Source: an uncultured Bacilli bacterium (GTDB lineage: Bacteria; Bacillota_I; Bacilli_A; RF39; UBA660). Taken from it: DNA of 37,505 bases. Shown here piece after piece: positions 16,508 through 22,328 of this stretch. The notes beneath the pieces are model-generated. The model did no database searches. It was not told where the DNA came from and saw only the letters and a list, made by a program, of their open reading frames with translations. Every line of letters starts with the position of its first letter. Positions within the stretch are counted from its first letter, which is position 1. Both the position numbers and the translations under genes were made by a program. The DNA lies in NCBI GenBank assembly GCA_944358235.1, contig CALVQL010000003.1:1-37505 (forward strand), in the 5' to 3' direction.

Positions 16508-18292
16508 ATGAGAAAGAAAGATAAAGGTTTTACTTTAGTTGAGTTGCTGGCGGTTATTGTTATTCTGGCACTAATCCTCATTATAGCAATACCATCAGTT
16601 CTGTCAGCTATGCGATCTGCCCAAAAGGAATCATTTTATCTTTATGCTCAAAGTCTGCAGTCAAAGGCTCTGGCTCAGTACACGCAGGATCTGGAGCACA
16701 ACAAAGATAATACCGATTGTGTCGTATACGATATTGGTGAAGATTTGGGTATATCGAACACAGGGGATTATGAAGGTTGGGTAAAGGTAAATCGGACACC
16801 TGTTGAATCCGGAAACAAAAATGTAACTGTTTCGCTTAGCAACAGTAGTGGACTACAGTATGTAAAATACTGTGTTGCCGATGGCTCTTCTTGTACACCA
16901 GACACTTCGTTCTATGTCACTGAAGGCGCAACTTCAACAGAGATAACGAAGTCATTACAAGAAGGAGAAGTTCTATGTGCCAACTATCAATATCTCGATG
17001 GTGACTCATTGAAGACGGCGAGCAATACTTGCAAGACTTATGCTTCTGGAGATGCTGTTGTTGATACATATGAATATAATGTAGAAATCACGCTAAAGGA
17101 CGATGCCTACGCAGTTGAAAATGTCGCATTTAACGACGATATGTCGATGGATGAGTTCTATGCAGCGATTTCTGAATTCAACGAGAATCACAAAAATGAC
17201 GCTAATAAATTAGCAATATCAGCTCCGTCATGTAGTGCTACTGGTGATGATGTCAAAGGAACGACGACGACTAGAACCACACAAGTAACGACTACTACTA
17301 CAGCTGATCGTGATACTACACGTGTAACAACGACGACGACGACTCGTAATCAAACAGGCGTTACAACGACGACCACTACAACAAGACGTACTGAACAAGT
17401 AACGACGACGACGACAAGTGATAGACCGACTGAAAACGTCTCGACGACGACGACAACAGAACGTCCTACGACATCAGATACGACGACTACGATAAATATT
17501 GAAGATCGCTCTTTACTACTTGCAAGCTTAAGTGTTAGTGGTTATGATGATGTTTTGGCATTTAGTCCATATAAATTCTATTACGATCTCAGAGTACCTA
17601 ATTCGGTAACGAGCTTAAATGTGACGGCAGTTGTCGAAGAGCCTGAAACTAGTGAGGTATATATTACTGGGGCCGAAGCGTTAAATGTTGGAACCAACCC
17701 AGTGGTAGCAACAGTATTTAATACGATAACTGGCGAAAGATCGTACTACCGTATAATGGTAACGCGTCTTGATGAATCAGGAAATGTTCCGAATAATTCA
17801 GGGGGAAATGGCAACGGAGGAAATGGTAATAGCGAATCTGGTAAACCAGATCCGACGTTAGCAGAATCAAACGCATCATTGAGTTATTTAGGGGTTTCTG
17901 GATACTCAATTGACTTCGATCCAGAAGTTTATGAATATACATTGACGACGAGAGGCGAGGATCATTTATTCATCAATTATGAGACTGCATCAGAGACAGC
18001 TCATGTTGCATTAACTGGAAACGAAGAACTTCAAAATGATGATCAAATAGTGTTATTCGTTCAAAGTGAAAACGGCTTCTATAACAAGACGTATACAATC
18101 ACTGTAAAATTCGCCGAAGAAGAATCAGCGACGACGAAAGTGCTTCGTGGATTCGCGGTAGGATTAGGAGTATTACTATTAATCATTTTGACGATTGTCG
18201 CAATCAACAAGCGTAAAAAGGTCGTTTTAGATGATGATGACAAAAAAGATGAAAAAGAACAACAGAACAATCATCCGGAAGATATCGTTTAG
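16508..18292 (+). CDS. Stalked prepilin: pilin head, Thr-rich repeats, two cadherin-like domains, C-terminal membrane anchor
   Basis: 594 residues with an unusual order. A canonical prepilin signal (MRKKDKG, then FTLVELLAVIVILALILIIA with Glu5) and a pilin-like head (to ~250) share VYDI..DL...GDY.G.V.VN with the pilin at 18383. A Thr-rich stalk follows (252-328), with five 12-14-residue repeats at 260-324. Then come a cadherin-like beta-sandwich domain (~335-421, LLLASLSVSGYDD...FYYDLRVP), a Gly/Asn linker, and a second such domain (~453-537, LSYLGVSGYS...YEYTL). Last are a transmembrane helix (~544-567) and a charged tail KRKKVVLDDDDKKDEKE. A pilin with a second membrane anchor should not be free to enter a normal filament. 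Possible roles are an anchored adhesin or a pilus base protein. Domain calls are by pattern. Confidence 0.85.
   Translation: MRKKDKGFTLVELLAVIVILALILIIAIPSVLSAMRSAQKESFYLYAQSLQSKALAQYTQDLEHNKDNTDCVVYDIGEDLGISNTGDYEGWVKVNRTPVESGNKNVTVSLSNSSGLQYVKYCVADGSSCTPDTSFYVTEGATSTEITKSLQEGEVLCANYQYLDGDSLKTASNTCKTYASGDAVVDTYEYNVEITLKDDAYAVENVAFNDDMSMDEFYAAISEFNENHKNDANKLAISAPSCSATGDDVKGTTTTRTTQVTTTTTADRDTTRVTTTTTTRNQTGVTTTTTTTRRTEQVTTTTTSDRPTENVSTTTTTERPTTSDTTTTINIEDRSLLLASLSVSGYDDVLAFSPYKFYYDLRVPNSVTSLNVTAVVEEPETSEVYITGAEALNVGTNPVVATVFNTITGERSYYRIMVTRLDESGNVPNNSGGNGNGGNGNSESGKPDPTLAESNASLSYLGVSGYSIDFDPEVYEYTLTTRGEDHLFINYETASETAHVALTGNEELQNDDQIVLFVQSENGFYNKTYTITVKFAEEESATTKVLRGFAVGLGVLLLIILTIVAINKRKKVVLDDDDKKDEKEQQNNHPEDIV
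17285..17479 (+). repeat. ACG-rich tandem repeat coding the Thr stalk
   Basis: Five imperfect units of 13, 12, 13, 13 and 14 codons, each beginning Val-(Thr/Ser)-Thr4+ and ending in a charged or polar segment (ADRDTTR, RNQTG, RRTEQ, SDRPTEN, ERPTTSD). The Thr runs are largely ACG triplets, forming short microsatellites. Changes in copy number would stay in frame and alter stalk length. Confidence 0.85.
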
Positions 18293-18382: not shown

Positions 18383-18907
18383 ATGAAGAAGAAAAATGGT
18401 TTTACATTAGTGGAGTTACTAGCTGTTATCGTTGTATTAGCTATAATAATGATTATAGCAATACCGACTGTATTGGATGTTATGAATAATGCAAGAAAGA
18501 GTTCGTTTGTGTTATATGCTGAAAAGGTTATTAACGCAGTACAGACTCAATACTTATATGATGCTGGTTTAGGTTCAATTGCTGGAGCTGGCTACTATGT
18601 ATATGATATTACATCTGATTTGGAGCTAACATCAACTGGAGATTATAGGGGTTATGTGGTAGTAAATGCCATTGACGTTGATAATGTTGAATACATCTTA
18701 TTCCTATACGATAACAACTACATGATTACGAATTACAATGTAACTCAAAATGGTATGCCAACAACTGACAATGGTTCAATTGCTGCATACGATGCATCAT
18801 TCATTAGTAGTCAAGCAGCTTCTTCTGCTGTAGCTTGCCAAGCAGCAGCTGGTAGCCAAGCAACTTGCTACAATAGAAACGGTTATATAATCGTAAGTGC
18901 TAATTAG
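18383..18907 (+). CDS. Type IV prepilin-like protein, candidate major pilin
   Basis: 174 residues, the size of a major pilin. Leader MKKKNG is followed by FTLVELLAVIVVLAIIMIIA with Phe(+1) and Glu(+5), so it should be cleaved and N-methylated by a prepilin peptidase (not in the window). The ectodomain carries YDITSDLELTSTGDYRGYVVVN, shared with the head of the stalked prepilin upstream. Two Cys near the C-terminus (ACQAAAGSQATCYNRNG) could form a short disulphide loop. Own near-consensus promoter and strong terminator: a monocistronic, probably highly expressed gene. Confidence 0.88.
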   Translation: MKKKNGFTLVELLAVIVVLAIIMIIAIPTVLDVMNNARKSSFVLYAEKVINAVQTQYLYDAGLGSIAGAGYYVYDITSDLELTSTGDYRGYVVVNAIDVDNVEYILFLYDNNYMITNYNVTQNGMPTTDNGSIAAYDASFISSQAASSAVACQAAAGSQATCYNRNGYIIVSAN

Positions 18908-18964: not shown

Positions 18965-19861
18965 GTGTTAATACTAGGATCTCATGTCAGCTATAATAAT
19001 CAAAATCAATTAGTAGGATGTTTGAAAGAGGCTTTAAATTACGGCGCTAATGCTTTTATGTTTTATACTGGAGCTCCTCAAAATACAATTCGTGGGGAAA
19101 TATCCGATACTTTAAGAGATGAAGCCTTAAAACAAATGCAATTAGCTGATATAGATGTTATTAATGTTATATGTCATGCACCATATATTATTAATCTTGC
19201 GAATAATATCGATCCTGATAAATATGCTTTTGCCATCAGTTTTTTACGCAGTGAGATAGAACGTTGTTTGCGTCTTAAGATTAAACGCATCGTTCTTCAT
19301 CCTGGAAGTGCTACTAAATTGGATCGCAAGATAGCAATAGATAATATTGTATATGCTTTAAATGCCGTTTTAAAGCCTGATGACGACATTGTTATACTTT
19401 TAGAGACGATGGCAGGAAAAGGAACAGAAATCGGCTCTAGCATGGCTGAAATAGCTTATATAATTGAAAATATAAACTTAAAGGACAAAGTAGGAGTATG
19501 CCTTGACACTTGTCATTTAAACGATTCCGGAGTCGATATTTCTTGTTTTGACGAATATCTCGATCAATTCGATATGACTATTGGAATTCAAAAAATAGGT
19601 TGCGTTCACGTCAATGATTCTAAAAACATTCTGGCATCACATAAAGATCGCCACGAAAATATTGGATATGGGACGATTGGTTTTGATAATCTTTTAAGAG
19701 TTATCTATAACCCACGTCTTGCTGATGTTCCTAAAATATTAGAAACACCATATATAGATCGTGAATACCCACCTTACAGGCAAGAAATTGAAATGATTAG
19801 AAAAAAGTCTTTCAATTCTAATTTATATGATGATATCATCTCTTATTATAGAGATAAATAA
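18965..19861 (+). CDS. nfo: Endonuclease IV (AP endonuclease)
   Basis: Zinc-dependent enzyme that cuts DNA 5' of abasic sites in base excision repair. A GTG start at 18965 is chosen: it yields MLILGSHVSYNN, matching the family start, and follows AGGTGG by 5 nt. 298 residues, normal length. All zinc-ligand blocks are present: GSHVS, CHAPY, VLHPGS, LLETMAGKG, CLDTCHLNDSG, HVNDSKN, DRHENIGYG and LETP. The 3' end is followed by the rnfC-like gene 13 nt later. Confidence 0.97.
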   Translation: MLILGSHVSYNNQNQLVGCLKEALNYGANAFMFYTGAPQNTIRGEISDTLRDEALKQMQLADIDVINVICHAPYIINLANNIDPDKYAFAISFLRSEIERCLRLKIKRIVLHPGSATKLDRKIAIDNIVYALNAVLKPDDDIVILLETMAGKGTEIGSSMAEIAYIIENINLKDKVGVCLDTCHLNDSGVDISCFDEYLDQFDMTIGIQKIGCVHVNDSKNILASHKDRHENIGYGTIGFDNLLRVIYNPRLADVPKILETPYIDREYPPYRQEIEMIRKKSFNSNLYDDIISYYRDK

Positions 19862-19874
19862 AGTTGGTGAATCT

Positions 19875-21041
19875 ATGAACGGAATGGTCTCAGTAAAAGA
19901 AGGAAAACGCAATTTAATTTCGCATAATGTCGTGGATTTTTTAAACCCAGATTATGTCTATATTCCGATATTAGAAGATTTTTCTATCGAAATTGAAACC
20001 AATAGTCAAGTCTTCAAAGAGGAAGTTATGTTGCGTAAGGGAAGCAAATTAGTTTATGCGCCAATATCGGGAACTGTTATCGGTGCAACCGAATCGATGC
20101 GTGTAAATGATCGTGAAGTTCGATGTGTTGTAATCGCTAATGATTTTCGGGAGAAAGTAAATCACAAGAAAAGCGCTATGAAGTATATAAACGAATACGT
20201 CAAAGAAGACTTTATTGAATTGATAAAAAAATATAATGCTTATGAAGGGGATATTCCTGAAGATATTAAAGTACTTGTCGTCAACGGTATTGATCCGGAT
20301 CCCTTTGAGAAGACTGCCTCATTCATTATCGATAACCACAGTTCACAAATTCTCGAAACGATCGATGCCATATCATCTATTTTAAAACTCGATACGACAA
20401 TTCTCGCTATTAATAATAACGATTCCGAAAACGTTATTAATCTGACTAACAATATCGGTACATATCCCAATATAACACTTCGACTTGTCCCCGATATTTA
20501 TCCTATCGGCTTTAAAGAAGTGTTGGTTAAATCAATCCTGACCAAAAAACAAGAGAAGGGCGGATATTTATATTTATCAGCACAAGATATATATACTATT
20601 TATAATGTCTTGAAGCGCAATAAACCGATGACAGAACGACTAGTTACTGTTGGAGGAAATGCCATCGATAAAAGCTTTGTCGTCAACGTAAAAATAGGGA
20701 CATCACTTAGTGATATTATCAAGAATTGTTGTAATATCGTCAATGACGATTATTATGTTATCGTCAACGGCTTGATAGCAGGGAAGACTTTATCTACATT
20801 AAACAATGTCATAACGACAGAGACTAGAAGTATATTTTTGAACACCAAGGACACTCAAAAAGAAAAAAAATGCATCAATTGTGGCTTATGTAATAGCAAA
20901 TGTCCTGTCGGGTTAAATCCTAAATATCTAAAAGATCATAAACGTGCTGACCGTAGCAAATGTATTCACTGTGGGTTGTGTACTTATATTTGTCCTTCGA
21001 AGATTAATTTTAAACCATATCTAGGAGGTAACGATGAATAA
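19875..21041 (+). CDS. RnfC-like protein with two [4Fe-4S] motifs but no recognisable flavin/NADH loop
   Basis: Resembles RnfC, the soluble membrane-bound subunit that carries electrons between NADH and ferredoxin-linked complexes. Start at 19875 follows GGTGA; upstream in-frame ATGs lie within nfo. 388 residues: N-terminal barrel-sandwich region (VYIPI...KGSKLVYAPISGTVIG), Rossmann-like middle, an SLBB-like segment (VTVGGNAIDKSFVVNVKIGT), then two CxxCxxCxxxCP motifs starting at Cys333 and Cys363. Oddity: where RnfC has the glycine-rich GxGGxGFPT loop and the NGAECEPY block, this protein has YNAYEGDIPED and NGIDPDPF, so the NADH/FMN site looks lost. It pairs with an rnfD-like gene (8-nt overlap) and no other rnf genes. 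Confidence 0.85.
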   Translation: MNGMVSVKEGKRNLISHNVVDFLNPDYVYIPILEDFSIEIETNSQVFKEEVMLRKGSKLVYAPISGTVIGATESMRVNDREVRCVVIANDFREKVNHKKSAMKYINEYVKEDFIELIKKYNAYEGDIPEDIKVLVVNGIDPDPFEKTASFIIDNHSSQILETIDAISSILKLDTTILAINNNDSENVINLTNNIGTYPNITLRLVPDIYPIGFKEVLVKSILTKKQEKGGYLYLSAQDIYTIYNVLKRNKPMTERLVTVGGNAIDKSFVVNVKIGTSLSDIIKNCCNIVNDDYYVIVNGLIAGKTLSTLNNVITTETRSIFLNTKDTQKEKKCINCGLCNSKCPVGLNPKYLKDHKRADRSKCIHCGLCTYICPSKINFKPYLGGNDE

Positions 21042-21939
21042 CAATGTATATATACGAAGCGAACGTTCGATTATGACGATTTCGCTTGCTCGTATTTTAT
21101 TTATTATGCCACTTGTCATATATGGCTTTTATAAGAACGGAATATATCTATATCAAAATGATTATGTAAGCTTAATAAATATGTTCCGCCCTTTGTATTT
21201 TATCTTTGGTGGAGCAATAATTGGGGCTTTAGTTAATATAATATATGAGCGACTAATTAAGAAAAATGACGATTCATTGCTAACCATAATATTCTCTTCA
21301 TTTCATGTTGAATATGGTATAATTCTTGGAGCGGTCATGAGTATTAATGCTAATATAGCCATTTTTTTAGGGGTTTTGTTCGTTGTTCTGTTTGCATCGA
21401 AATTTACTAATAATCGTATAAATACCATGGCGTTCTGTTTCATTTTGATATATATTATCGAATCAACAATTTCGTCTTTTGTTTATGCTAATCCCTATGA
21501 AAGCGCCAACTCTTTTTCGCTTTCATTCATGGATTATATGATTGGACGCGGTCCTGGCGGAATAGCAAGCACACATGTAATATTATTGTTTGTCGCTATC
21601 ATCGGATTGGAGCTTACAAACAGCAATAAGACGAGTATAGCAATAAGCGCAATAGCTATATTTACTTTAGCAGTTGGAATCGAATCCATTATTACTAATA
21701 GTAACTTTTTAGATAACTATTTTATTAATAATTATCCATTCATATTTACATTTATTGCAACCGATAGTGTAACTAGTTGTTATACAATAAGGGGTAAAGT
21801 TGTGTTTGGACTTGCAATCGGGCTTTTAAGCTTTGGCTTAAGCTTATGGAATGCAATATTAGCTCCATATATCGCTATCCTCGTTGTAAGCTTATTCAAT
21901 AATCTTATCGATAGAAAAGCAAATATATTGAACAAATAA
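21034..21939 (+). CDS. RnfD/NqrB-like membrane protein without the covalent-FMN motif
   Basis: 301 residues with about ten hydrophobic segments in RnfD order. The loop GRGPGGIASTHVILLFVAIIG matches the GxxGSIGETSxLAxLxG block of RnfD. The S/TGAT flavinylation motif expected shortly before it is absent (NPYESANSFSLSFMDYM). The C-terminal half keeps a TDSVTSCYTIRGKVVFGLAIGLL block, the counterpart of the D.xTSP.T..G....G...G region. Strong AGGAGG inside the end of the upstream gene and an 8-nt overlap indicate a coupled two-protein module. Likely a membrane partner of the upstream iron-sulphur protein; substrate and coupling ion are unknown. Confidence 0.8.
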   Translation: MNNNVYIRSERSIMTISLARILFIMPLVIYGFYKNGIYLYQNDYVSLINMFRPLYFIFGGAIIGALVNIIYERLIKKNDDSLLTIIFSSFHVEYGIILGAVMSINANIAIFLGVLFVVLFASKFTNNRINTMAFCFILIYIIESTISSFVYANPYESANSFSLSFMDYMIGRGPGGIASTHVILLFVAIIGLELTNSNKTSIAISAIAIFTLAVGIESIITNSNFLDNYFINNYPFIFTFIATDSVTSCYTIRGKVVFGLAIGLLSFGLSLWNAILAPYIAILVVSLFNNLIDRKANILNK

Positions 21940-21974: not shown

Positions 21975-22328
21975 ATGGCAAAGTTTTGTACTAATTGTGG
22001 ACATAAATTGGAGGAGAATCAATCGTTTTGTGTAAGTTGTGGGAAAAAAGTCGATAACACATCGGAAAATAATTCCCAAAAGCAATATTCTAATATTCAT
22101 AGCAAGAGTAAGGTTATAGCTGGGCTTCTTGGTATCTTTTTAGGAGCTTTTGGTGTACATAATTTTTATTTAGGATACAACAATAAAGCAATTGCCCAAC
22201 TTCTTATAACAGTCTTATCATGCTGTATTTTATCGCAAATATCAGCAATATGGGGATTTATCGAAGGAATTTTAATCTTATGTGGAAATATTAAAACTGA
22301 TGCTGATGGCAACCCTCTTGTTGATTAA
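21975..22328 (+). CDS. Zinc-ribbon and TM2 domain membrane protein
   Basis: 117 residues. N-terminal zinc ribbon with Cys5, Cys8, Cys19 and Cys22 (CTNCGHKL...CVSCGKK), a polar linker, then a TM2 domain of two helices with the family's GxFGxHNFYLG turn (about residues 58-103). TM2 proteins are widespread, with no agreed function. Monocistronic between its own promoter and terminator. Confidence 0.9.
   Translation: MAKFCTNCGHKLEENQSFCVSCGKKVDNTSENNSQKQYSNIHSKSKVIAGLLGIFLGAFGVHNFYLGYNNKAIAQLLITVLSCCILSQISAIWGFIEGILILCGNIKTDADGNPLVD

Follow-up and report, generated by a model that had tools for sequence, protein, structure and literature searches.

The stretch of DNA analysed here (hereafter the window: 37,505 nucleotides from the draft genome of an uncultured Bacilli bacterium, 1.07 Mb in 90 contigs and 85.6% complete) carries a pair of genes that is almost certainly a reduced derivative of the Rnf complex held in place by selection, and the best reading of its history is that of a vertically inherited, reduced descendant of that complex. 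The six-protein Rnf energy machine has apparently been cut to two parts in these small-genome, gut-type Bacilli, and more than once. The first gene, rnfC (19875-21041, forward strand), encodes an RnfC-like protein of 388 aa in which an RnfC/NuoF-like core, its NADH/FMN loop deleted, precedes a C-terminal double 4Fe-4S domain; its start is placed at the ATG at 19875 and its stop at 21041, an alternative in-frame ATG at 19827 offering a longer, less likely start. The second, rnfD (21034-21939, forward strand), encodes an RnfD-like integral membrane protein of 301 aa whose NqrB/RnfD fold is indicated by PF03116 and by an AF2 model. The two frames overlap by exactly 8 nt, as an earlier note made from the sequence had stated, and an AGGAGG ribosome-binding site for rnfD lies within rnfC (21023-21028, forward strand), 5 nt 5' of the rnfD ATG.

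Homology of both proteins to their Rnf counterparts is evident in sequence and in fold. The RnfC-like protein matches TIGR01945 (rnfC) over most of its length with 161 bits (E 2e-47), short of the curated cut-off of 246, and scores just 61 bits against TIGR04481 (PrdC), where the cut-off is 490; its AF2 model, built from 25 relatives (pLDDT 90.9), finds RnfC chains as its best PDB matches (TMq 0.87-0.89). The RnfD-like protein matches PF03116 with 55 bits (E 8e-15), above the cut-off of 27.7, and its model, likewise built from 25 relatives (pLDDT 91.6), matches RnfD/NqrB chains at TMq mostly 0.74-0.80. Two perfect 4Fe-4S motifs are present in RnfC as the earlier note had described, CINCGLCNSKCP at 20871-20906 and CIHCGLCTYICP at 20961-20996 (both forward strand). 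All eight of their cysteines are invariant in an alignment of 25 sequences and both motifs recur in 56/56 RnfC compared; judged by these cysteine ligands, the window protein would hold the same two 4Fe-4S clusters as RnfC of the complete complex. The site for NADH and FMN, on the other hand, is gone. Alignment with C. tetanomorphum RnfC opens a gap of ~14 residues exactly on the Gly-rich loop (canonical GMGGxGFPTYxKY), so that ~11-14 residues are missing at 20211-20270 (forward strand), and the canonical NAVECEPY block is replaced by NGIDPDPF at 20283-20306 (forward strand), the alignment thus confirming that both the loop and the NGAECEP-type block are lacking. The loss of the loop is common to 37/37 RnfC of the window's divergent type, for which residue comparisons cover the sequences of 37 of the 38 genomes that carry it.

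Within RnfD, the linker between the two bundles, from Glu156 to Asp167 (21499-21534, forward strand), has shrunk from ~34 to 11 residues, deleting the segment in which the flavinylated threonine of C. tetanomorphum RnfD, Thr153, sits; it is exactly 11 residues long in 37/37 divergent RnfD. Beyond it, in the GRGPGGIAST segment (21544-21573, forward strand), a serine replaces Glu185, which contacts FMN in C. tetanomorphum. The covalent FMN site is therefore missing, as had been claimed, and alignment of the loop regions revealed no flavin motif at an altered position. The wider claim that the pair lacks both flavin signatures applies to the two FMN sites only, as RnfD also has a riboflavin site, and its ligands are present in the window. 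In C. tetanomorphum, a non-covalent riboflavin, the third flavin, is held in the cytosolic half of RnfD by Asn124 and Asp248 (PMC9588780); in structures it lies 11.7 Å from RnfC cluster 2, with these two residues beside it (PMC9588780), and in A. woodii the N123A and D249A variants of the corresponding ligands N123 and D249 are inactive (PMC11889175). The window RnfD retains both, as Asn130 (21421-21423, forward strand; Asn124 of C. tetanomorphum) and, by alignment, Asp244 in FIATDSVTS (21763-21765, forward strand; Asp248 of C. tetanomorphum, Asp249 of A. woodii). To judge from these residues, the window clade has erased the outer FMN site but retained the inner one for riboflavin. Across the divergent family, Asn130 is kept in 29/37 RnfD and lost in 8/37, Asp244 is kept in 14/37 (the window clade included) and replaced by Leu, Ile, Met or others in 23/37, and the two occur together in only 12/37, such that riboflavin cannot be assumed for the family as a whole.

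No other Rnf subunit was recovered. RnfA/E, RnfB, RnfG and ApbE were not found in the whole of the window's genome (85.6% complete), nor was any further gene of PF03116, PF02508, PF04060, PF04205 or PF02424; the absence of rnfG, rnfE, rnfA and rnfB, previously noted for the neighbourhood, thus extends to the entire draft genome, and the search for other rnf/nqr genes and ApbE yielded no complete rnf operon elsewhere. With a genome of this completeness, in 90 contigs, one must consider that the pair might belong to a complete Rnf, as duplicates or as components, with the remaining genes fallen into assembly gaps. However, RnfA/E, RnfB, RnfG and ApbE are absent as well from the other 37 genomes with a divergent pair, each at least 90% complete, and loss of the FMN sites is what one would expect without these proteins, making this explanation exceedingly improbable.

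A survey of 117 genomes of the order, all draft assemblies, places the pair in context. RnfC occurs in 65/117, 62 of them with RnfD, and RnfD-type genes in 62/117. RnfA/E (PF02508) is found in 13/117, none being the window's genome or any genome with a divergent pair; RnfB (PF04060) in 12/117, which are the full-Rnf genomes only; FMN-bind in 15/117; and ApbE in 20/117, with 0/38 among the divergent-pair genomes. A full rnf gene set is present in 12/117 and RnfC and RnfD alone in 47/117, the window's divergent type accounting for 38/47 of the latter. Description of the pair as 'isolated' was consequently mistaken, since RnfC with RnfD is common across the order. The idea of a working two-protein module fared well: RnfC adjoins RnfD in 41/41 loci examined, with overlap in most, and this conserved order and overlap is joined, as support, by the co-occurrence of the two genes in 62 genomes, by independent reductions that repeatedly ended in these two genes, by cysteines that do not vary and by purifying selection.

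The order also contains forms richer in subunits. In the full-Rnf genomes (L100, L103-L106, L167, L168), a single frame of ~470-495 aa encodes RnfD fused to RnfG, and RnfB, at ~90-110 aa, is a mini form that recalls the short one reported for T. maritima. Two genomes (G005 at L101, G088 at L102) hold RnfC with an RnfDG fusion that has its flavin sites, and encode ApbE at a separate place; RnfA, RnfB and RnfE were not found in either, and the arrangement is possibly a one-way, flavin-based electron exporter. A further genome (G010; L099, L047) encodes RnfC, RnfD and then one divergent RnfE-like protein (63 bits), for which an RnfA partner was not found in that genome. Among 296 genomes across the class, high-scoring divergent RnfD came from the window's family alone, and occurrence of the same pair outside the order was rejected, as the opened loci of other Bacilli hold canonical RnfD or NqrB-like gene sets. 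In other Bacilli families (L153-L161, L163, L164), an NqrB/RnfD-like gene of ~305 aa is followed by genes of NqrC/D/E/F size, with an NqrA-sized gene adjacent only in some.

Placed in a tree of 52 RnfC together with canonical ones, as the earlier note had proposed, the 30 divergent sequences form one clade (100/100), near the genomes with RnfC and RnfDG and other reduced genomes. Reduced genomes are also scattered among full-Rnf genomes, and at least six changes between full and reduced status are needed on this tree. The single clade and the several changes argue for a vertical origin, and the scatter and number of changes indicate that reduction to RnfC and RnfD was probably repeated: given that assemblies are drafts and some forks of the tree are open, lineages that kept C and D probably lost A, B, E and G on more than one occasion. 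Conserved neighbours were considered as a functional clue and rejected, being housekeeping genes (uvrC, trxA, dnaG, rpoD and trmK, and in the window clade nfo, ftsW and frr) that speak for nothing beyond vertical inheritance. Immediately after the pair, on its downstream side at 21975-22328, lies a gene for a zinc-ribbon and TM2 membrane protein, found in the same place in three other loci (L080, L081, L107). Upstream of nfo and the pair, at 16508-18292 and 18383-18907, two proteins, of which the larger also has a Cadherin-like domain, bear type IV pilin-like N-methylation motifs.

Fast divergence, and the way in which subunits and then sites disappear step by step within the order, might suggest that the pair is a functionless, decaying leftover of Rnf. 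Against this, both frames are intact with a coordinated overlap in dozens of genomes, the cysteines are invariant, the linker is fixed at 11 residues, and dN/dS is far below 1 in unsaturated pairs, all of which renders decay very improbable. For the closest, unsaturated pairs of divergent genomes (G040/G056 and G015/G032), dN/dS of C and D is 0.15-0.25, and the argument from selection rests on these, since dS is high or the estimate noisy in the remaining divergent pairs. Selection on divergent RnfC and RnfD is relaxed yet purifying; such values argue against decay, and genes still under selection probably have a job in these bacteria. In the pair of genomes that retains flavin sites (G005/G088), dN/dS is 0.12, but dS is high.

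What that job might be is complicated by the three genomes that have RnfC without RnfD, all from one genus (g17: G017, G033 and G071). These have lost exactly the FeS domain, so that clusters and RnfD were lost together, leaving an RnfC core of 275-281 aa (L169:5202-6047 in G033; L170:5809-6654 in G017; L171:2190-3017 in G071) that still lies downstream of uvrC. A degenerate RnfD beside this FeS-free RnfC was considered and rejected, the neighbour being a soluble protein unrelated to RnfD. The FeS-free core has dN/dS of 0.08-0.10, and strong selection on it without clusters or RnfD implies that RnfC has some non-redox role. It could thus be proposed that the RnfC core serves an electron-independent structural or regulatory purpose throughout, clusters and RnfD just holding it at the membrane, and it is in keeping with this that NqrA, a relative of RnfC, has no redox cofactors (PMC12174285). 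Nevertheless, a mere anchor would need no cysteines, and all eight are kept in all other genomes compared, over deep divergence; as an account of the pair, a purely structural role is therefore decidedly unlikely.

On balance, and with little more than even confidence, the work of the pair would be electron transfer from the RnfC clusters into RnfD. In Rnf, electrons travel from RnfB via RnfA/E and RnfG to the FMN and riboflavin of RnfD, and thence through the clusters and FMN of RnfC to NAD+ (PMC12174285, PMC9588780). The pair would correspond to the electron-output arm of this route, in which RnfC on the cytosolic side, carrying two 4Fe-4S clusters, would dock on RnfD in the membrane, and the window pair would retain its last segment between membrane and cytosol, namely riboflavin and two clusters. 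Loss of the FMN/NADH site would make a one-electron carrier, for example ferredoxin, the natural partner in the cytosol: a low-potential carrier, most probably ferredoxin that PFOR has reduced, may feed the RnfC clusters directly, these would pass electrons to RnfD (in the window clade by way of its bound riboflavin), and electrons would leave RnfD for an acceptor at the membrane or outside. As the ion-moving RnfA/E pair is absent, such a system would act as a one-way electron outlet rather than a U-shaped, ion-pumping ferredoxin:NAD+ path. A ferredoxin-like donor, transmembrane electron transfer or transport had all been put forward by the earlier note as candidate functions, and remain inferences. 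More tentatively, and with less than even confidence, RnfC and RnfD may constitute a new FMN-free, two-protein transmembrane redox unit, serving quinone-less fermenters as a ferredoxin outlet to the envelope; equally tentative is its wiring, in which the 4Fe-4S clusters would feed a riboflavin-only RnfD, possibly flavin-free in much of the clade. An electron path through RnfD without any flavin is hard to draw, and the main doubt on the wiring model is that most of the wider family has lost the riboflavin Asp.

PFOR is encoded in 112/117 genomes of the order, among them the window's (in which a contig end truncates the gene), so that reduced ferredoxin is probably available; its presence does not track the pair, being equal in genomes without it. 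Two sister genomes in the window's genus (G086, G101) gave no match to PF01558 (PFOR), which may reflect assembly gaps. [FeFe] hydrogenase as an alternative sink was rejected, occurring in 20/62 genomes with the pair vs 15/55 without (Fisher p = 0.69). A quinone acceptor was likewise rejected, although scavenged quinones are possible: UbiA exceeded the cut-off in 11/117 genomes, none in the window's genus, where quinone synthesis looks absent, and the window's genome itself yielded no quinone prenyltransferase of UbiA type. No acceptor gene was found among the neighbours of the pair (nfo, ftsW, frr, dnaG, rpoD, trmK, uvrC).

Alternatively, RnfD could have turned into a channel or transporter for solutes or ions, built on the urea/ammonium-transporter fold, with RnfC and its clusters acting as a redox sensor or gate instead of an electron wire. 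Urea and ammonium transporters do share the RnfD/NqrB fold (PMC9588780, PMC12174285), the RnfD model has weak secondary Foldseek matches to urea transporters and AmtB, and a YKNG segment, Glu156, Asp167 and Lys199, among others, are conserved in divergent RnfD while the flavin ligands drift. These residues are, however, mostly common to canonical RnfD within the family, so that their conservation may be merely structural; work on A. woodii found that RnfD conducts electrons, not Na+, and has no ion path (PMC11889175), and a transport-related neighbour gene was not found. Taken together, a channel function seems unlikely.

The pair would represent the smallest part of Rnf kept by selection once the ion pump has gone. 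Side by side, the order contains full Rnf, RnfC with RnfDG, and RnfC with RnfD both with and without flavin sites, a natural series through which to explore the roles of RnfC and RnfD. The studies of C. tetanomorphum (PMC9588780) and A. woodii (PMC11889175) disagree on whether ions, or electrons alone, move through RnfD, and a natural RnfCD without RnfA/E offers a direct test of this dispute. There is a practical consequence too: annotation of such genes as 'Rnf complex' would wrongly imply Rnf-based energy conservation in these bacteria.

No description of a system of RnfC and RnfD only was found in the open-access literature searched; one study reports Rnf in Izemoplasmatales and a wastewater group, and does not mention partial Rnf in RF39 (PMC7301438). 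The Rnf complex itself (RnfABCDGE; C. tetanomorphum 7ZC6, A. woodii 9ERI) is a ferredoxin:NAD+ oxidoreductase that has in common with the pair RnfC/RnfD homology, fold, C-D gene order and the two predicted 4Fe-4S clusters of RnfC, and with the window clade the riboflavin ligands of RnfD. Unlike the complex, the pair has no RnfA, B, E or G and no ApbE, and has deleted the FMN/NADH loop of RnfC and the FMN-Thr linker of RnfD, leaving no ferredoxin:NAD+ or ion-pumping path of known kind. Searches of the window's genome found neither RnfA and RnfE with their Cys-bound iron centre (PF02508), nor the ferredoxin-binding subunit RnfB (PF04060), nor RnfG with covalent FMN and ApbE; for these reasons, and for want of the FMN sites, the pair should not be called an Rnf complex, though it is descended from one. 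The closest described partial systems are the NQR/RNF-like ones, for which one-way transmembrane electron flow through a partial Rnf has been proposed (Meheust 2021, PMC8238504; Huang 2024, PMC10979944), and in which RnfD is fused to a PF00175 NAD domain and paired with a flavinylated RnfG (PMC8238504, PMC10979944). These likewise have an RnfD-like subunit without the flavinylated threonine. The pair differs in using, on the cytosolic side, an RnfC whose only predicted cofactors are FeS clusters; the window RnfD-like protein matches PF03116 alone, with no PF00175 fusion, and no linked flavinylated RnfG/FMN-bind protein or ApbE was found for the pair. Stand-alone RnfC-type proteins also exist outside Rnf, such as PduS and PrdC, and are not known to work with RnfD. 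Finally, the pair resembles part of Na+-NQR, where NqrA is a relative of RnfC without FMN and NqrB a relative of RnfD with riboflavin; NqrA, however, lacks clusters too, and NqrA and NqrB work inside NqrABCDEF with quinone, whereas the pair keeps its clusters.
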